Shown here in pieces: positions 6,382 through 64,000 of a stretch of 64,000 bases of DNA. How positions within the stretch are numbered: position 1 is the stretch's first letter; each line of letters opens with the position of its first letter. The stretch lies in contig NZ_CP045503.2 in assembly GCF_007004545.3 (NCBI RefSeq), forward strand, positions 900,501 through 964,500. The letters are read 5' to 3'. The notes beneath the pieces were generated by a model. That model was not told the origin of the DNA, ran no database searches, and saw only the letters and a list, made by a program, of their open reading frames with translations. Position numbers and translations under genes: made by a program. This DNA comes from Shewanella eurypsychrophilus. Its GTDB lineage: Bacteria; Pseudomonadota; Gammaproteobacteria; Enterobacterales; Shewanellaceae.

Positions 6382-7737
6382 TTAGCTGGCTCGCTTACGG
6401 AATACCACGATAGTGACAGCAACGACAGCCAAGATCATACAGTACCAGGCATGTGTAACAGCCTCTAATGGCGAGATGCTAAAGGTTGATGCAACAAGTA
6501 AGGCTTGAGCACCATAAGGGATAAGTCCCTGAATGATACAGGAGAAGATATCCATGATACTGGCAGCACGCTTTGGGGTTACGTCATGCTTTTGTGCTAG
6601 CTCTTTAGCAATCTCACCAGTAACAACAATCGATACTGTGTTGTTTGCCACACAGGTATTAGTTGCAGCCACAATACCTGCCATGCCTAACTCAGATGCA
6701 CGCGTCGATGCGCCGCCTTTAGCCTTTGAAAATTTAGCGATTAACTTTTCAATCTGCTTGCTCACGAAGGCTAAGCCACCTTGCTGTTGCATCAGTGCAG
6801 CTAAGCCACCCACTAACATAGAAAGAATGAAAATTTCCTGCATGTTGCCGAAACCGGTATAGATATCCTGACCGAACTGGATAACGCCATAATCCATAGT
6901 CAGAATGCCTGTGATACCGGCGAGTAGGATACCGATAGTGAGTACCACAAAAACGTTAAGGCCCGATACGGCTAGGACTAAAATGGTTAGGTAAGGAATG
7001 ACTTTAACAAAGTCTATCTCCTGCGCGGCAACATCGGCCTGACCTTGACCCGCAAAGGTGAAGGCAATCAGGGTAATGATTGACGCTGGGATAGCGAAGA
7101 TAAGGTTCTCTTTGAACTTATCTTTCATCTCACAGCCTTGGGTACGTGTCGCGGCTATGGTGGTGTCAGAGATGATGGAGAGGTTATCACCAAAAAGTGC
7201 ACCTGAGATCACGGCGCCTGCCATTAGGGCTAGTTCGATTTGCGCTTCGTTAGCCACGCCTAGTGCGATAGGGGCTACGGCAGCAATTGTGCCCATCGAG
7301 GTACCCATAGCCGTCGCGATAAAGGCTGCAATGACAAAGAAACCAGGTAAAAGTAGGTTTGATGGTACAAGTGATAAACCAAGAGCGACAGTGGCATCCA
7401 CACCACCGGTGGCTTTAGCCACGGCTGCAAATGCTCCCGCTAATAGATAGATAAGGCACATGGCGATAATATTGGCATGACCAATACCTGCGATAAATGT
7501 CTCTATGCTTTGGTTGAGCCTTTGCTTAGAGATGATTAAGGCAAAGATAATCGCTGGCAGAATAGCGACAACACTTGGTAATTGATAGAACGCAAAGTCT
7601 ACGCCTTGGCTCTGAAAGTACACTCCGGCACCGATAAATAATGCGAGGAATAAAAATAGTGGCAATAGCGCTATAAATGAGGCTATAGGTACGCCATTGG
7701 TTTGCGTGCTTTTAGGAGCATCAGTCGAAGTTGTCAA
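6382..7737 (-). CDS. metT: NhaC-superfamily transporter, probable methionine transporter MetT
   Basis: A 451-residue, 10-12 helix inner-membrane protein of the Na+/H+ antiporter NhaC superfamily (SGALFGDNLSIISDTTIAAT is diagnostic of the family; GTSMGTIAAVAPIA and ATNTCVANNTVSIVV are also seen). NhaC-type proteins under methionine control have been named MetT and predicted to import methionine in comparative-genomic work. Here the promoter is overlapped by four consecutive 8-bp MetJ boxes (7938-7969), so a methionine role is more likely than sodium export. The specificity is inferred from regulation, not from the protein. The gene is monocistronic with a leader of about 180 bases. Confidence 0.75.
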   Translation of the reverse strand: MTTSTDAPKSTQTNGVPIASFIALLPLFLFLALFIGAGVYFQSQGVDFAFYQLPSVVAILPAIIFALIISKQRLNQSIETFIAGIGHANIIAMCLIYLLAGAFAAVAKATGGVDATVALGLSLVPSNLLLPGFFVIAAFIATAMGTSMGTIAAVAPIALGVANEAQIELALMAGAVISGALFGDNLSIISDTTIAATRTQGCEMKDKFKENLIFAIPASIITLIAFTFAGQGQADVAAQEIDFVKVIPYLTILVLAVSGLNVFVVLTIGILLAGITGILTMDYGVIQFGQDIYTGFGNMQEIFILSMLVGGLAALMQQQGGLAFVSKQIEKLIAKFSKAKGGASTRASELGMAGIVAATNTCVANNTVSIVVTGEIAKELAQKHDVTPKRAASIMDIFSCIIQGLIPYGAQALLVASTFSISPLEAVTHAWYCMILAVVAVTIVVFRKRAS

Positions 7738-7921
7738 AATGTTCTCTCTTGTCTTGTTGAGCTAAGTGTAAAAACTCTGTCTTGTAACGTAAAAAACCAT
7801 AGGTTCCCATGCCTCCTAGCTGGAACACGCCTTCTATTTCAGCTCATCTCTTGAGCATATGATGAACTCTTATCTTTAAGAGGTACTGAAATAGTCAGAA
7901 TGGTAGATCTCAATAGTTGGC

Positions 7922-7950
7922 AGGATATGAGATTAATAGACGCCTGTCAA
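7922..7950 (-). promoter_or_regulatory. sigma70-type promoter of metT
   Basis: On the minus strand TTGACA (7950-7945) is separated by 17 bases from TATCCT (7927-7922). This is a near-consensus promoter about 185 bases before the metT start, overlapped by the MetJ boxes. Confidence 0.65.
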
Positions 7951-7969
7951 TTTAGACGTCTAGATGTTT
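7938..7969. promoter_or_regulatory. MetJ operator, four tandem met boxes
   Basis: Read on the plus strand, four contiguous 8-mers AGACGCCT, GTCAATTT, AGACGTCT and AGATGTTT match the MetJ box AGACGTCT at 7, about 3-4, 8 and 5-6 positions. MetJ binds arrays of such boxes with SAM as corepressor. The array covers the -35 hexamer of the metT promoter, so repression by methionine/SAM is expected. Confidence 0.75.
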
Positions 7970-8248
7970 TTACTTCCATTTGTGTTTTTCTATGCCGTTC
8001 ATGGCAAAATTTCTTATCTCACTGTTTGCTAATGACTTTACTGAGTGGTCGGCATTAGTGTGAGTTGTCGCCTTCTCGTTGTCTTCTTGCTGTCTTCTTG
8101 TTGCACTCTTGTTGGTTTGCTATTGCCTAGGTTTGTTTTTTGTGGTCAGAGCCAATTAGAAAAATTTTAGTCGAAAATAAGCTGCTTAAGCTATACAAGT
8201 CACGACAGGAAAATTAAAATGCTAGCCCTGAATATAAAGGGTCAATCC

Positions 8249-8773
8249 ATGAAAATAAAAGAGATAGATAAAGTCGTATATCGTAAGCACCTCAATCTTG
8301 TCACTGTTGCTTTAGTGGCGAGCCTAATCGTAATGTCATTGGCCTTTGGCACTGGGCTTATTGCACTTTTTGGTGAGCCAAATGGTGTGAGCGCCGAGTC
8401 AACAGGCAATTTTCAATGGAATTTACTCGGTGTGATACTGGCTGCCATTATCTCAGTGGCCACCTTAATTAAATTTAAACATCATCCTTATCTGGTCGAG
8501 GTCTACTATGTGTGGCAGTTAAAGGCCTTACATAATCGAATCTATCGTCGGCTTAAGAAGATAAAAGCTGCTGCATCTAATCATGATATCGATGCCTTAA
8601 TGATACTGAGTTTTTACTATCGGAGTCAGAAGCAGGTCTACCAGCTAGATAACAACACACTGACTTTGAGTAAGCTGCAAAATGACATTGATGAACTCAA
8701 CTCAACTATTAGCCAGCTCAACCTTTCAATTTCCATTGAGGAGTTTAGCGCCGAGTTGTTGAACAAATTCTAG
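8249..8773 (+). CDS. DUF3087 family membrane protein
   Basis: A 174-residue protein with two N-terminal transmembrane helices (about residues 13-38 and 52-70) and a cytoplasmic helical tail with coiled-coil character (LSKLQNDIDELNSTISQLN). It resembles DUF3087, a family of unknown function found mostly in marine gammaproteobacteria. Start: the ATG at 8249 has AAAGGG six bases upstream and begins MKIKEIDKVVYRKHLN as in relatives; an in-frame ATG at 8219 would add ten residues and has its own CAGGA, so the choice is not certain. It stands alone; the region before it (7970-8218) shows nothing else. Confidence 0.7.
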   Translation: MKIKEIDKVVYRKHLNLVTVALVASLIVMSLAFGTGLIALFGEPNGVSAESTGNFQWNLLGVILAAIISVATLIKFKHHPYLVEVYYVWQLKALHNRIYRRLKKIKAAASNHDIDALMILSFYYRSQKQVYQLDNNTLTLSKLQNDIDELNSTISQLNLSISIEEFSAELLNKF

Positions 8774-8910
8774 TAAATAAGCTTGAAGGGGGATCTTTGT
8801 CTGAGTTTCCTCTAAGCGGCATATGATGGTAACTGAAGGTTTTGGTCTAGACTTGTAGTTACTATTATAAATCTAACTGATATCCAGTTTGCCGCTGATT
8901 AAGGTGGATC

Positions 8911-9726
8911 ATGAAGAAAACCATCATGGGCATCATCATGGTAACCATACTGCTTTTGGGCAACCTCTTTGCCCTAAAAGTGGGAGCCAATCATGCTCTC
9001 AAAATTGCCATTGTCGAATACCCTCCATATGAATTCACCCGCCACGATGGGCAAGGTGGTGTCCAGTTCGATGGCATTTCGGTGAAATTGGTTGAGGAGG
9101 TGTTTAGACGCATCGAGCAGCCAATAGTCTTTCAGGTTCTCCCCTGGTCCAGAGCACTTAAATTGTTAAAAGAGGGCAAGATCGACGGTTTATTTGAGGT
9201 ACTGAATAGGCCTGAACGACAAGTCTATGCTGATTATAGCCAGCAAGTATTGATGCAAGAGGTAGTGATGCTCTTCGTCACTGAAGACTCTGGTATCGAA
9301 TTTGATGGCGATCTGGAGCAACTTGGGGATTACCATTTTGGTATGAGGAAGGATTTCAGTTACGGGACTATTTACGATAATGCTATTGAGACCAAGATGA
9401 TTAAACAGGTGAGTGTCGATGTTAAGTCTTCAACATTATTGCTCAAGTTATGTACCGGAGACATAGACATTCTTATCGCCGAGAAAGACACTATCTACTA
9501 TGTCGATAAAGAGATAAAGGCACTGCAAAGTAACTCGTTAAAACGCTGTAAAAACATAAAGCGATTGGCTACAGCTGTGCAATCGACACCGACCTACATG
9601 ACTTTTTCAAAGCAAAGTCATTTGAGTCATGTCAGAGATAAGTTTGATCAAGCATTACTACAGATGAAACAAGATGGCAGCTATCAACAGATTATCGATA
9701 CATGGAAGCAGGCTAATATAGAGTGA
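8911..9726 (+). CDS. orphan periplasmic solute-binding protein, family 3
   Basis: A 271-residue secreted protein: signal peptide up to about residue 25 (IIMVTILLLGNLFALKVGAN), then a family 3 solute-binding fold. Seen: LKIAIVEYPPYEF at the start of the mature domain, GISVKLVEEVFRR, LPWSRALKLLKEGKIDGLFEV and a C-terminal DKFDQALLQMKQDGSYQQIIDTW. Such proteins bind amino acids or related small molecules. No permease or ATPase gene is adjacent, which is common in Shewanella and suggests either a remote ABC partner or a sensory or scavenging role. The start ATG has GGTGG just upstream. The ligand cannot be predicted. Confidence 0.8.
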   Translation: MKKTIMGIIMVTILLLGNLFALKVGANHALKIAIVEYPPYEFTRHDGQGGVQFDGISVKLVEEVFRRIEQPIVFQVLPWSRALKLLKEGKIDGLFEVLNRPERQVYADYSQQVLMQEVVMLFVTEDSGIEFDGDLEQLGDYHFGMRKDFSYGTIYDNAIETKMIKQVSVDVKSSTLLLKLCTGDIDILIAEKDTIYYVDKEIKALQSNSLKRCKNIKRLATAVQSTPTYMTFSKQSHLSHVRDKFDQALLQMKQDGSYQQIIDTWKQANIE

Positions 9727-57059: not shown

Positions 57060-57237
57060 GCGTGTGCATCCTAATACTTAACGCTTAAAATTAACTTAAT
57101 TTGGTTTCTCTTTACATTTGTTAACATAGATTAAACCTGTGTGGGTATGGGTGATCTAAGTCATCGGGTGAGTGTTTTACGTTAAGTGATATAGAATGTG
57201 CTCAGATTTGAAATACCGATATAACATTAGAGTAAAT

Positions 57238-57948
57238 ATGTTCCTAACACCTTATTTTAAAAAAGAAAATCAGACTTTATCTGTCACGCAGATTCAGGCC
57301 AGCAATTTTGCTAAGGGGGTCGCTCAAGACTTTAACCCTATCCATAGTGTTGGTGCTAAGCGTTTTTGTGTGCCTGGCGACCTGCTTTTTTCATTGGTGT
57401 TAGGTCAGTATGGTTTAAGCCAGAAAATGGGGTTTAACTTTACTGGAATGGTCGGTGCAGGCGTTGAGTTGCAGTTTCCAGACTCTGTGGAGCAAAAGTT
57501 TGAGATTAGGGATGATAAAGATAAGCTCTACCTTAAAGTCAGTCGCCATGGTGATGTGAGCCGATGTGAAGCTCAACTTGAATCATTTATTCGTAGTTAC
57601 GTCGCTTTTTCGGGTCACAATTTTACTCATGTGCTAGTGCCTATGATGGAACAGCACCAAATGATGATCAACCCGACACGCCCTCTGGTTATCTATGAAA
57701 GTATGTCTTTTGATCTGACGAGTCTAGATTTTGAAGAGGTGAGTCTGTCATTGGTTGGACAGGAGCTTAAAATCGATGGTAAACGTGGCGATGTGACCCT
57801 GAAATTTGAGCTGCATAGCGGTAGCAGCTTAGTGGGAACCGGTATTAAAACATTGGTGATGAGTGGTCTACGTCCTTACGATGCAGAACAAGCCAAAACC
57901 ATGGTTGCCGATTATGAAAGCTACCGCTCTGACTTCGAAAAAGCTTAA
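57238..57948 (+). CDS. DUF3581 protein with hot-dog-like motif
   Basis: A 236-residue protein matching DUF3581, a family of unknown function in Shewanella, Vibrio and relatives. The N-terminal part contains SNFAKGVAQDFNPIHSVGAK followed by VPGDLLFSLVLG; the DxNPxH-then-PG pattern is that of MaoC-type hot-dog dehydratases, so an acyl-thioester ligand is possible. The ATG at 57238 is preferred to the GTG at 57196. It is monocistronic; a long hairpin follows. Confidence 0.75.
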   Translation: MFLTPYFKKENQTLSVTQIQASNFAKGVAQDFNPIHSVGAKRFCVPGDLLFSLVLGQYGLSQKMGFNFTGMVGAGVELQFPDSVEQKFEIRDDKDKLYLKVSRHGDVSRCEAQLESFIRSYVAFSGHNFTHVLVPMMEQHQMMINPTRPLVIYESMSFDLTSLDFEEVSLSLVGQELKIDGKRGDVTLKFELHSGSSLVGTGIKTLVMSGLRPYDAEQAKTMVADYESYRSDFEKA

Positions 57949-58612: not shown

Positions 58613-59962
58613 ATGAACTTTGAATCACTTCTAGTTGAAATTAATGCCCTGGTTTGGGGGCCTATTACTCTCTGTTTACTGGTCGGTACTGGTTTATACC
58701 TCACCATCAGACTGAAACTTATTCAGGTATTCTACCTGCCTTTTGCGTTGAAACTCTTGTTTAAACCCGCCACAGGTAAGGGAGACCTCTCCTCTTTCGC
58801 CGCGCTCTGCACCGCGCTATCAGCCACTATTGGTACGGGTAATATTGTCGGTGTCGCCACTGCGATTAAGATTGGCGGTCCCGGGGCGCTGTTTTGGATG
58901 TGGCTCGCGGCATTTTTCGGCATGGCCACCAAGTATGCCGAATGTATGTTAGCGGTGAAGTATCGCACTACAGATGCCAGAGGCCGGATTGCTGGCGGCC
59001 CTATGTACTATATCGAGCGAGGTTTAGGGCTGAGCTGGCTGGCAAAAATATTCGCCGTATTTGGCGTCGCAGTGGCCTTTTTCGGCATTGGCACATTCGC
59101 TCAAGTTAACGCCATCAGTGATGCGATGACCATAGCCTTCGATGTGCCAACTTGGGTGACCGCTGTGGTATTAACCCTGTTGGTGGCCGTGGTGACATTA
59201 GGGGGCGTGACCCGTATTGCCAGTGTGGCTAAAAGGTTGGTGCCTAGCATGGCACTGGCTTATATCACCGCCTGTCTAGGAATATTGTTTAGTTTCAGCG
59301 AGCAGATTTTACCGGCATTTGATCTGGTGATCACTTCAGCCTTTACCCCTATCTCTGCCGCAGGCGGCTTTCTTGGGGCCACCGTAGCGCAAGCACTGCA
59401 AATTGGTATTGCTAGAGGGGTATTCTCCAATGAAGCTGGGCTCGGTAGTGCCCCCATTGCCGCCGCTGCCGCGAAAACTGATGAGCCTGTAGAGCAGGGG
59501 CTGGTGAGCATGACCGGCACCTTCTTCGATACTATTATCATCTGTACCATGACAGGCTTGGTGTTAATTATCACCGGTGTGTGGAGTGGTGATGCCGCGG
59601 GAGCCGCGATGACCAGTGCCGCCTTTATGGCAGGAAGCTCTCCCATTGTTGGCCAATATGTGGTTACCATCGCCTTAGTGTGTTTCGCATTTACCACCAT
59701 CTTAGGTTGGCACTATTATGGTGAGCGTTGCTGGTATTATCTAGTGGGTGACAGAGGACTTAGGCTATATCAGGGGATGTTTTTATTTCTGATTGCCGTC
59801 GGTGCTTTTATCAAGCTCGATATGATCTGGCTGCTCGCTGATACCGTTAATGGCTTGATGGCGATCCCTAACCTGATCGCGCTATTAGGGCTCAGACATG
59901 TGATCTATGGCGAGACCATGAGCTATTTCTCTAGGCGAGAAACAAGGGCGGTAGTTGCATAA
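58613..59962 (+). CDS. alanine/glycine:cation symporter (AGCS family)
   Basis: A 449-residue sodium-coupled symporter of the inner membrane. Family signature SFAALCTALSATIGTGNIVG, then AFFGMATKYAECMLAVKYR and GPMYYIERGLGLSW; about ten helices. Presence of a glycine riboswitch in the leader indicates glycine transport. The ATG at 58613 is preceded by GAGAACTGCA. The next gene is 290 bases away, beyond a CTAG palindrome, and is probably unrelated. Confidence 0.93.
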   Translation: MNFESLLVEINALVWGPITLCLLVGTGLYLTIRLKLIQVFYLPFALKLLFKPATGKGDLSSFAALCTALSATIGTGNIVGVATAIKIGGPGALFWMWLAAFFGMATKYAECMLAVKYRTTDARGRIAGGPMYYIERGLGLSWLAKIFAVFGVAVAFFGIGTFAQVNAISDAMTIAFDVPTWVTAVVLTLLVAVVTLGGVTRIASVAKRLVPSMALAYITACLGILFSFSEQILPAFDLVITSAFTPISAAGGFLGATVAQALQIGIARGVFSNEAGLGSAPIAAAAAKTDEPVEQGLVSMTGTFFDTIIICTMTGLVLIITGVWSGDAAGAAMTSAAFMAGSSPIVGQYVVTIALVCFAFTTILGWHYYGERCWYYLVGDRGLRLYQGMFLFLIAVGAFIKLDMIWLLADTVNGLMAIPNLIALLGLRHVIYGETMSYFSRRETRAVVA

Positions 59963-60253: not shown

Positions 60254-63200
60254 ATGTCAAGCTTGAATCGAATTGTGCTGATAAATACGCACCTACCTGG
60301 CGTAGTTGAACTCGCCCTCGATGGTCACACCAATATTTGTGGTACGAACGCCTCTGGCAAGACCACATTACAGCGCTTAGTGCCCGTCTTTTATGGTGAG
60401 TATCCAAGTCGCGTCGTGCCGTCTACACGAGACAGTTTTGAGCGTTGGTATCTGCCCCATGACTCTAGCTTTATCATCTATGAATATAAGCGTGCCGACG
60501 GTCTGCTTAACCAAGCGGTATTGGCATCGGCTGGCGATGGTAAAGGGGTTAATTATCGCTTTATCGGTAAAGGTTTTGAGCTTGATGATTATATCAAGAC
60601 AAAGCATGGCGATAATATTCAGTGCTTTACCATGGCAGAGCTTGGCCGTGAGATGAAACGTGCTGGCGTCGCTGTGACCAACTTGCTTAACACGCGTGAG
60701 TTTAGGGCGATTATCCAAAACGATAGAGCCTTGTTGAGCACGGGGAGTAATCGCACTGAGTTACGTAATTATGCGCGTCAGTTCTCCTTGTGTGAGGCTG
60801 AGCATTCATTACGTCATATCGAGAAACTCGCCAAAGCAGTACATTCGAAAGAGGGCAAGATGGAGACGATCAAATCGATGATCGCCGCTATTTTGGAAGA
60901 AGATGGCGTTAATCCGCCCAGTTCACGTATTAATCCACAGCAAGTTGAATCTTGGATCAAAGAGAGCCAACTTATTCAGGGCTTTGAGCTGATCCGACCC
61001 GAATTTGAGAAATTAGAGCAAGAGTTCGACCAACTGCTCAGTACTGAGCAGCGGCTCGCCAGTTTACGTCGTGGTTACAGCAAAGATGAAACCGATGAAA
61101 TTGAAAGGCAAGAGCATCACCAAGACTTGTCTAAAGCGCTAAACGCCAAGTTAAGAGAGCTAGATGACCATTGGAAAGAGCAGCGTGATGAGCTCAACTT
61201 AGACTTGTCGGCTGCAAAGGGTGATGTTGCCAAGTGCGAATATGAACTGGACTCGATAGAAGATCAACATGCCTCTTTTCAAGATGCTGAAATCGAACGA
61301 GCTAAGTTGGATCTTGAGCAGCTGCCAAGCTGGCGTGGCACACTAGAAAACTTATCTGAACGACATAAATTACAAACCGAAAAGCACCAAGATATTGAGG
61401 CGGCTTATAATGCTCGCCGTAGCAAGATTGGTGAAGGGCTTAACCGAGAGCTGGAAAACTTGCATCAAGAGCAAGACAGTTTAAGAGAGTCTCGTGATAA
61501 ACAGCGTGAACAAGGCCGAGCGGAGTTAGCTTCGTTAGAGGGCCAATGGCGTGAGGCTACTGACAAAGGGCAGTCTACATTCAGTGAGCAAGGGTATCAG
61601 CTTAAGCTGTCAGCTGCTGAGCTAAAAGTGCGGGTGGATAGCGTCACTTACTCGGAAGAGGAAAAGCTGGCGCTAGCTATTTTCGATGAGCGAATTACCG
61701 GTGCAGATGAAGAACAAGAAGCGTGTAATGCCAGGGTAGATCGTTTTACTACTGAAGATCGCAAGCTTCGCGCCAAACGTGATCAAGCCAATGAAAGTCT
61801 TCGAGTAACGGGTATTCGTGTCACTGAACGTCAAAGTGAGCTCGAAGAGCTGCATCATATCCTGTTCCCTCAGTCACACACCTTGTTGGAGTTTTTACGC
61901 AAAGAAGCTAATGGTTGGGAAAATACCCTCGGCAAGGTGATCAATTCAGAATTGCTGCATCGAAGCGATCTGCACCCTGCTATTTCAGGGGAAAACCTCG
62001 AAGCACTTTACGGCATAGCGTTAGATCTCAAAGCAATCGATTCACCAGAGTATGCAGCGTCTGAGCAAGAGCTACGGATCAAGCACGCCAACGCCGAAGA
62101 GCTGCTAGTCAGTGCTAAAGAGCTACAAACGGAAGCCGAAGGGCACCTGGTTGCGGTCAATGCTGAACTCGATGTTATGGCGCGCGAGCTTACTTTTTCT
62201 CGTACAGCCTATAAAAATAGCCGCGATGATCTGCGCCGTTTGTTTGATGATAAACGTGCAGAGCAGGAGAAGATTCAGCTTGCCTTGAACGAGCGGAAGT
62301 CGGCTTCACAAAAGCAGTTAGCACGACTCGATAATGAGTTAAAACAGTTAAAGCAACAGCAGCAAGAGTGGCTGGAAGCACAAAAAGAGCAAGCGTTAGA
62401 AGCGCGCATGGAGAAAAATGCCTACTGGCAAGAGGTCGTTGGCGCGCTTGATAACCAATTAGGCCAGATTAAAGCCAATATTCAAAATCGGCGAGACCAT
62501 GCTAAGAGTGAACAAAAAGCGTGTGAGCTGTGGTATAAAAATGAGCTCAAATCTCGCGGGATTGATGAAGCTACAATCGTTGCACTTAAAGCCGAAATTC
62601 GCACACTTGAAGCAAATATCAGTAAAGCCGAGCAGCGTCGTAGCGAAGTGTTGCGCTATGATGATTGGTACCAACATACTTGGCTGAAGCGCAAGCCTAA
62701 ACTGCAAACAGAGCTGAGTACGGTTAAGCAAGCCACATTAGCATTAGAGCAGCAGCTTAAATCTAAATCAAATGAGGTTAAGGCGCAGCGGAATGAGCTA
62801 GATGCTAAGCGTAAATCCTCTGATGCGGTGCAAGTTGAAGCCTCTGAGAATTTAACTAAGCTGCGCAGTGTGATGCGCAAACTCACAGAGCTAAAGCTTC
62901 CTGCCAATAATGAAGATGCCCAAGGTGGATTGAGTGAGCGCTTACGTCAAGGTGAAGATCAGCTATTAAAGCGTGACTCATTACTAGGGTCTGTGAAGCA
63001 ATATGTGGAGCATTTTGACTCTGTTATTGCCAGCAAGTCTGGATCGAGTTTGTCAGAGTTCTGGGAGCGAGCGCGTGAAGAGTCTAGCTTCGTTAATGAC
63101 AAAGGCATTCGGATTATCGACTACCGCAAACTGGTCCCGCAACTGGAACAACTACTCAATGTTATGGTGCCGCAATCTATGATGGCACTGAGAGAGCAAG

Positions 63201-63928
63201 GCCGTATTTTCGGTGTTGATCTAACTGCTTACTATGATGTACTTGCCGATATCGATCGCCGTATTGCCACTCAAAGTGCGCGTATCACCCGAGAAGTCGG
63301 CGAAGAGTTGTTCCTCGATGGTGTTTCGGAGTCAGCGGTTAAGATCCGCTCGCGTATTAGTGAACTTGAATTTTGGCCTGAGCTCGAAGCATTTGTTAAA
63401 GCGTTCCGTCAATGGAAGGCTGATGGCTTTAATGAGCTTCCGGGTGAGGATTACACCAACAGTATGCGTCGTGCTATCGACATCATAGGTCGCGCCGCGT
63501 TATCTGGCGGCATATCAAAACTGCTTGAAATTGAACTGCGCTTAAAAGAGGGGAATAGCGACCTTATTATCCGCACCGATAGACAGTTAAATGAATCATC
63601 GAGTCACGGTATGGCTTACCTTATTTTATGTAAATTCTTGCTGGCGTTTACTCGTCTTTTACGTGGCCGAGCAGAGGTGACGATTCATTGGCCTATAGAT
63701 GAGCTGGGTACACTGCACCATGCGAATGTCAAAAAGATATTCGATGCCTGTGAAAACAATAATATTTCAGTATTGGGCGCATTCCCTAATCCAGAGTCTG
63801 AGGTACTGAGTTTGTTTGCTAATCGCTACATTATTAATAAGCAGACTAAAAAGCTGCAGGTTGTTAAACCACAAATCAATCCTATTGCCGAAAAACTTAG
63901 CAAGCGACGAACTCAGGAGGCGGTGTAA
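60254..63928 (+). CDS. SMC-like ATPase, DUF3584 family
   Basis: A 1224-residue protein, which matches the normal length of DUF3584. It has an SMC/MukB/RecN-type layout: Walker A GTNASGKTT at residues 30-38, a long coiled coil (roughly 250-960) with several heptad runs (LDNELKQLKQQQQEWLEAQK), and a C-terminal Walker B VTIHWPIDELG with D1149/E1150, preceded by SSSHGMAYLILCKFL as a degenerate ABC signature. Family function is unknown; chromosome or plasmid maintenance or defence is possible by analogy with MukB and the Wadjet SMC protein JetC. The ATG at 60254 has AAGGA; 60221 is longer but lacks support. The stop overlaps the next start (TAATG). Confidence 0.85.
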   Translation: MSSLNRIVLINTHLPGVVELALDGHTNICGTNASGKTTLQRLVPVFYGEYPSRVVPSTRDSFERWYLPHDSSFIIYEYKRADGLLNQAVLASAGDGKGVNYRFIGKGFELDDYIKTKHGDNIQCFTMAELGREMKRAGVAVTNLLNTREFRAIIQNDRALLSTGSNRTELRNYARQFSLCEAEHSLRHIEKLAKAVHSKEGKMETIKSMIAAILEEDGVNPPSSRINPQQVESWIKESQLIQGFELIRPEFEKLEQEFDQLLSTEQRLASLRRGYSKDETDEIERQEHHQDLSKALNAKLRELDDHWKEQRDELNLDLSAAKGDVAKCEYELDSIEDQHASFQDAEIERAKLDLEQLPSWRGTLENLSERHKLQTEKHQDIEAAYNARRSKIGEGLNRELENLHQEQDSLRESRDKQREQGRAELASLEGQWREATDKGQSTFSEQGYQLKLSAAELKVRVDSVTYSEEEKLALAIFDERITGADEEQEACNARVDRFTTEDRKLRAKRDQANESLRVTGIRVTERQSELEELHHILFPQSHTLLEFLRKEANGWENTLGKVINSELLHRSDLHPAISGENLEALYGIALDLKAIDSPEYAASEQELRIKHANAEELLVSAKELQTEAEGHLVAVNAELDVMARELTFSRTAYKNSRDDLRRLFDDKRAEQEKIQLALNERKSASQKQLARLDNELKQLKQQQQEWLEAQKEQALEARMEKNAYWQEVVGALDNQLGQIKANIQNRRDHAKSEQKACELWYKNELKSRGIDEATIVALKAEIRTLEANISKAEQRRSEVLRYDDWYQHTWLKRKPKLQTELSTVKQATLALEQQLKSKSNEVKAQRNELDAKRKSSDAVQVEASENLTKLRSVMRKLTELKLPANNEDAQGGLSERLRQGEDQLLKRDSLLGSVKQYVEHFDSVIASKSGSSLSEFWERAREESSFVNDKGIRIIDYRKLVPQLEQLLNVMVPQSMMALREQGRIFGVDLTAYYDVLADIDRRIATQSARITREVGEELFLDGVSESAVKIRSRISELEFWPELEAFVKAFRQWKADGFNELPGEDYTNSMRRAIDIIGRAALSGGISKLLEIELRLKEGNSDLIIRTDRQLNESSSHGMAYLILCKFLLAFTRLLRGRAEVTIHWPIDELGTLHHANVKKIFDACENNNISVLGAFPNPESEVLSLFANRYIINKQTKKLQVVKPQINPIAEKLSKRRTQEAV

Positions 63929-64000
63929 TGAGCCAAGATAGCGAAACGACCTTAGTGGGGACGAGTGCGCTTATTGAGCGTTTACTTAAAGGTCAGTTTA
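63928..64000 (+). CDS. partner of the SMC-like protein (truncated by window end)
   Basis: The ATG at 63928 shares its A with the stop of the SMC-like gene, and AGGAGG is eight bases upstream, so translation is coupled. Only the first 24 codons are seen (MSQDSETTLVG, TSALIERLLKGQF); no family can be assigned. By position it may be a kleisin or accessory subunit. Confidence 0.6.
   Translation, partial: MSQDSETTLVGTSALIERLLKGQF

Follow-up and report, generated by a model that had tools for sequence, protein, structure and literature searches.

A standing question about SMC motors is how a single type can both organise the cell's own chromosome and destroy foreign circular DNA. The question is raised by an operon that starts near the 3' end of the window analysed here, a stretch of 64,000 nucleotides from Shewanella eurypsychrophilus (bases 900501-964500 of a single complete 5.85-Mb contig). 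A first-pass annotation had seen there an SMC-like operon that could serve either chromosome organisation or defence. The locus is best read as a divergent SMC complex of the Mks/Wadjet family with an inverted gene order. We consider it probable that its MksB, MksE and MksF subunits (BEF) form a nuclease-independent motor, likely chromosomal, and that MksG (G) is an optional defence component that cuts circular DNA.

The SMC gene and its operon

The mksB gene (Table 1) is preceded by a purine-rich, ribosome-site-like stretch just 5' of its ATG (AAGGAAAA). Its product gives one full-length Pfam match, to DUF3584 (PF12128, 1606.7 bits, model positions 1-1191 of 1191), and consists of an N-terminal head with Walker A (GTNASGKTT), a long coiled coil and a C-terminal head with a signature-like motif (SSSHGMAYL) and Walker B (HWPIDELG). 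The open reading frame, the Pfam match and the motifs agree with the protein described in the first-pass annotation. Its view of the family as uncharacterised holds as far as the Pfam label goes, but the product can be recognised as an SMC of the MksB/JetC type. A PDB sequence search with MksB and MksF as queries matched nothing relevant.

Table 1. Features of the mks locus. Window-scale positions equal positions in the fetched locus L002 plus 57499.
Feature	Position	Strand	Position in L002	Length	Evidence or remark
DUF3581 protein	57196..57948	+			second upstream anchor
sodium:alanine symporter	58613..59962	+			PF01235; upstream anchor in this clade, outside the complex
mksB-like SMC ATPase	60254..63928	+		1224 aa	ORF (ATG at 60254, stop ending at 63928), Pfam DUF3584, motifs
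mksE-like	63928-64581	+	6429-7082	217 aa	PF21980 MksE; in the window only 63928..64000
mksF kleisin	64583-65803	+	7084-8304	406 aa	predicted fold; outside the window
mksG TOPRIM nuclease	65791-66645	+	8292-9146	284 aa	DUF7281 and predicted fold; outside the window

The proposed coupling to a second gene was borne out by a TAATG overlap, in which mksE starts on the last base of the mksB stop codon. The mksB/mksE junction is thus 1 bp, that between mksE and mksF is near zero, and mksG overlaps the 3' end of mksF by 13 bp. The operon does continue past the window, and reading the next kilobases, as had been suggested, revealed every hoped-for kind of partner 3' of mksB. As an MksE-like subunit, a MukF-like kleisin and a TOPRIM nuclease were identified behind the SMC gene, the operon is mksB-E-F-G, and the alternative of a core locus conserved without partners does not apply.

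The MksE-like subunit matches PF21980 (MksE) with 26.2 bits (E 1.2e-5), 0.8 bit short of the cut-off of 27, and the same family is above the cut-off in three relatives (L310, L312 and L328). The MksF sequence matched no Pfam or PADLOC family. Its AlphaFold model was predicted for the S. kaireitica protein, which is 94% identical, from an alignment with 46 further sequences. The model is of modest confidence (pLDDT 73, pTM 0.42); a globular part at the N-terminus is followed by a long bundle of helices, a disordered linker and, at the C-terminus, a domain of helices and strands. With this model, the first seven Foldseek ranks are all MukF chains, at an E of only ~2e-3, and JetA (8dk2) is at rank 11. 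VIA-align superposes it on MukF with a Z of 12.2, a range that unrelated long-helix bundles also reach (Z ~10-12). Given these bundles and the modest model, we assign MksF only with moderate confidence as a predicted kleisin of the MukF/MksF/JetA fold.

MksG carries DUF7281. Its model (pLDDT 87) fits best the MksG of Corynebacterium glutamicum (8b7f; Z 12.6 over 153 residues, 3.3 A), followed by Topo VI-A and by JetD (7til, Z 10.7). The acidic triad of the TOPRIM domain, E143/D195/D197, is invariant in 75 of 75 sequences, and no invariant tyrosine column was found in the N-terminal domain of the same alignment.

Likeness to known systems

MksBEFG of C. glutamicum and EptABCD of Mycobacterium smegmatis (Wadjet type I) likewise encode, in one operon, an SMC ATPase, a kleisin, a small MksE/KITE-like subunit and a TOPRIM nuclease, and it is the nuclease of the former that the MksG model resembles most. 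They differ from the Shewanella locus in their order, which is F-E-B-G, and in their nuclease, which carries DUF3322 and DUF2220, whereas the 284-residue protein found here carries DUF7281. The Shewanella locus is, moreover, core, with the nuclease optional. Published mks operons are ordered mksFEBG (PMC10123090), also in Pseudomonas species, whereas B-E-F-G is seen here and in relatives, in line with the early remark that the order is unlike MukFEB and JetABC. Gene order is not mechanistic, but it marks a separate lineage. In P. aeruginosa, MksBEF is a three-subunit complex without nuclease, like the Shewanella state that lacks mksG, and it helps to organise and segregate the chromosome (PMC10586767); in Shewanella, however, one orthologous locus carries BEF in some members of the genus and BEFG in others.

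Regarding enterobacterial MukBEF, the Shewanella kleisin finds its best fold match in MukF, but MukBEF has no nuclease, unlike Shewanella BEFG. Identity with MukBEF was rejected, as this genome gave no match to the MukB N-terminal family PF04310. A substantial MukB-family match was found in only 3 of the 129 genomes of the genus, each time inside a 1532-aa ORF, a finding unusual for the genus (G112:C1:2517131, G113:C1:2485556 and G039:C1:963175).

The four functional roles of Wadjet types I-III (JetABCD) are the same as those in BEFG, and both the PADLOC JetD1 model and the JetD structure match MksG. Full-length JetA, JetB, JetC and JetD, by which PADLOC defines Wadjet, were nevertheless not recovered: JetC1 matches just the first 42 residues of MksB (E 4.6e-5), the JetD match to MksG is partial, and JetA and JetB gave no match in the operon. 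What marks the locus as a member of the MksBEFG/Wadjet family is the set of SMC ATPase motifs with a long middle region, an MksE/JetB-type subunit, a kleisin and a TOPRIM nuclease; the family orders F-E-B-G and A-B-C-D are not matched by B-E-F-G.

A core locus with an optional nuclease

The mks locus was fetched and annotated for all 129 genomes of the genus. Both mksB (DUF3584) and mksF are present in every one of them, while a class-wide sample of 369 genomes had 10 with DUF3584 above the cut-off. Genomes of the sister family have BEF without G. In nearly all 129 genomes the locus occupies one chromosomal slot and is essentially single-copy, usually between DUF3581 and/or the sodium:alanine symporter on one side and a dicarboxylate symporter (SDF) on the other. 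The DUF3581 gene lies directly 5' of mksB in many species without the sodium:alanine symporter, and some clades have different slot neighbours (L105, L107 and L108, for example).

Three states of the locus were found: type A with G (52 genomes), type A without G (70) and a type-B BEFG (7), which is deeply divergent (~21-32% identical to type A). An additional divergent BEFG copy is located elsewhere in the genome in L099 and L100. A whole-genome search for G returned 61 positive genomes, including one whose sole G lies away from the locus (G109) and one with G in a second operon (G018). We also observed an orphan mksG-like gene with an intact TOPRIM triad (L326:9248-10153), away from a G-less mks locus.

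Whether the operon lies in a variable island or in the core had been left to check, and the answer is divided: BEF is core, mostly syntenic and essentially single-copy in 129 of 129 genomes, and the variable part is the nuclease gene only. A defence island was rejected for the copy in the window because the locus is core and is flanked by transporter and DUF3581 genes.

Turnover of mksG

In a phylogeny built from 124 concatenated BEF proteins, the presence of G changes state a minimum of 8 times, or 7 times when only well-supported branches are counted. In L119, BEF is nearly identical to that of G-containing relatives and G is reduced to a decayed remnant, an apparent case of recent loss. The G and BEF trees agree in broad outline, but in L118 the G sequence falls apart from those of its sisters in the BEF tree (AU p 0.005, descriptive like the value for L176, as both groups were picked after viewing the trees). 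In the pair L117/L118, dS is 0.70 for G, 0.28 for F and 0.18 for B, an excess expected if G alone was replaced. The tree position of G in L176 is suggestive of horizontal regain, but at 5% the AU test leaves the vertical placement standing (p 0.068). The best explanation is that G behaves as a module, open to gain, loss and exchange, on a BEF motor that was kept throughout.

Selection acts differently on the two parts. Median dN/dS (Nei-Gojobori; descriptive, as pairs were hand-chosen from the trees) in 21 close pairs with G was 0.025 for B, 0.014 for E, 0.023 for F and 0.154 for G, and in 16 pairs without G it was 0.021, 0.015 and 0.018 for B, E and F. The neighbouring transporter gave 0.026 and 0.019, respectively. 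Purifying selection on BEF is equally strong with or without G, whereas G evolves about six times faster, its TOPRIM triad nonetheless being invariant. GTNASGKTT, SSSHGMAYL and HWPIDELG are unchanged in all other type-A sequences that cover them, whether G is present or not. As dN/dS is equally low and the ATPase motifs are unchanged where G is missing, BEF appears to have a role independent of G.

Replacement of the whole operon

In L098, 81 residues from the C-terminus of a type-A MksF (90% identity to L177) persist as a scar behind the type-B operon, 942-1184 bases past the type-B mksF stop. A type-A operon was therefore directly replaced by type B in this genome; in the other type-B genomes, replacement is inferred from the shared slot. 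The SDF flanking genes of the seven type-B genomes are scattered among those of type A. Their labels change at least 4 times on starred branches, but do so about equally often (6.9) after shuffling, as no more than seven rows are of type B.

Other mksF fragments were observed in a few species without G only. Tandem duplications of the mksF 3' end with a 135-bp period lie behind the intact gene in L094 (L094:8431-8928), and tandem fragments also follow mksF in L095 and L096. Integration of a mobile element at the mksF 3' end is unsupported, the L094 fragments being a local tandem duplication.

Proposed function

JetABCD extrudes DNA loops in an ATP-driven manner, and its nuclease cuts when two motors meet on a small circle (reviewed in PMC10586767). 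By homology, we infer that BEF extrudes loops and that G cuts. MksB dimers, the MksF kleisin and MksE subunits would form an ATP-driven motor that entraps DNA or extrudes loops. Its nuclease-independent role would most likely be chromosome organisation or segregation alongside SMC-ScpAB, whose kleisin ScpA is present in 128 of 128 near-complete genomes. MksG would dock on this motor and cut DNA once extrusion completes on a small circle, which could confer plasmid immunity. From the genomics, BEF seems to serve a core function and G to be an addition for defence.

We extend this tentatively, at somewhat short of even confidence, to a core condensin that may serve as the chassis of an exchangeable nuclease. 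Gain, loss or swap of mksG would then switch the complex between housekeeping and immunity against circular DNA, and the whole operon could be replaced within a slot that is never empty.

Smc5/6 has been proposed to silence or compact viral circles. BEF alone might similarly restrict plasmids without cutting, by silencing or compacting small circles, with G as an upgrade to cleavage. This would explain strict BEF retention and the optional nuclease together, and retention of BEF does not by itself point to chromosomes. We nevertheless regard it as unlikely, since near-universal, slow-evolving retention is unusual for defence and the G-less precedent, MksBEF of P. aeruginosa, is chromosomal (PMC10586767).

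The defence side of the preferred reading, BEF as a probable chromosomal motor with an optional cutter, is illustrated by distant BEFG operons on large, mostly conjugative plasmids of Vibrio, Marinobacter, Azospira and Enterobacter, which the PADLOC models also recognise poorly. The Enterobacter copy, on an IncC plasmid (L327), adjoins WYL, CBASS-type and Tn7-like genes, and its SMC gene is interrupted by an insertion sequence (IS256 transposase). Such plasmid copies beside defence genes, the Wadjet/MksG-like nature of G and the swap of the whole operon, within its slot, for a divergent counterpart would also fit a plain Wadjet-type plasmid defence, whose G-less copies are inactivated remnants on their way out. 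This is, however, very improbable: none of the 129 genomes has lost BEF, the sister family has BEF alone, and in the G-less species examined BEF is always intact, with identical ATPase motifs and a dN/dS as low as in G-containing species and in the neighbouring transporter. Equally improbable is a chromosomal role for the entire BEFG complex, in which G would resolve topological links of chromosomal DNA instead of defending against plasmids; the Topo VI-A/Spo11-like fold of G and the core locus would suit this, but G is fast-evolving (dN/dS 0.15), is repeatedly lost or exchanged, unlike a housekeeping topoisomerase, and lacks an invariant tyrosine column in its N-terminal domain.

A census of the plasmid initiator Rep_3 counted 14 positives among the 61 genomes that have any G match and 6 among the 68 that have none. 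Draft contigs and relatedness confound this comparison, and Rep_3 is also seen on short contigs of G-containing draft genomes. Rep_3 is not rarer in genomes with G, and plasmid exclusion is unsupported at this resolution. Separately, DUF7281 nuclease genes were observed beside a shorter SMC gene (917-936 aa) and small partner genes in L320, L321 and L324, another putative DUF7281-associated SMC system in Gammaproteobacteria.

Significance

This work names an operon that Wadjet models largely miss and proposes what it probably does; its genes have so far carried labels such as DUF3584, 'ATP-binding protein' or 'hypothetical protein'. The origin of MksBEF from Wadjet via nuclease loss has been proposed (PMC10586767). 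Shewanella has both states, BEF and BEFG, at one orthologous locus, including an apparent recent loss, and comprises cultivable, engineerable species. Because BEF is present in every sampled genome of the genus and about half of the genomes add mksG, nature offers a comparison of one machine in two states, with the cutter and without it. Removing or adding mksG alone would show what the motor does on its own and what the nuclease contributes.
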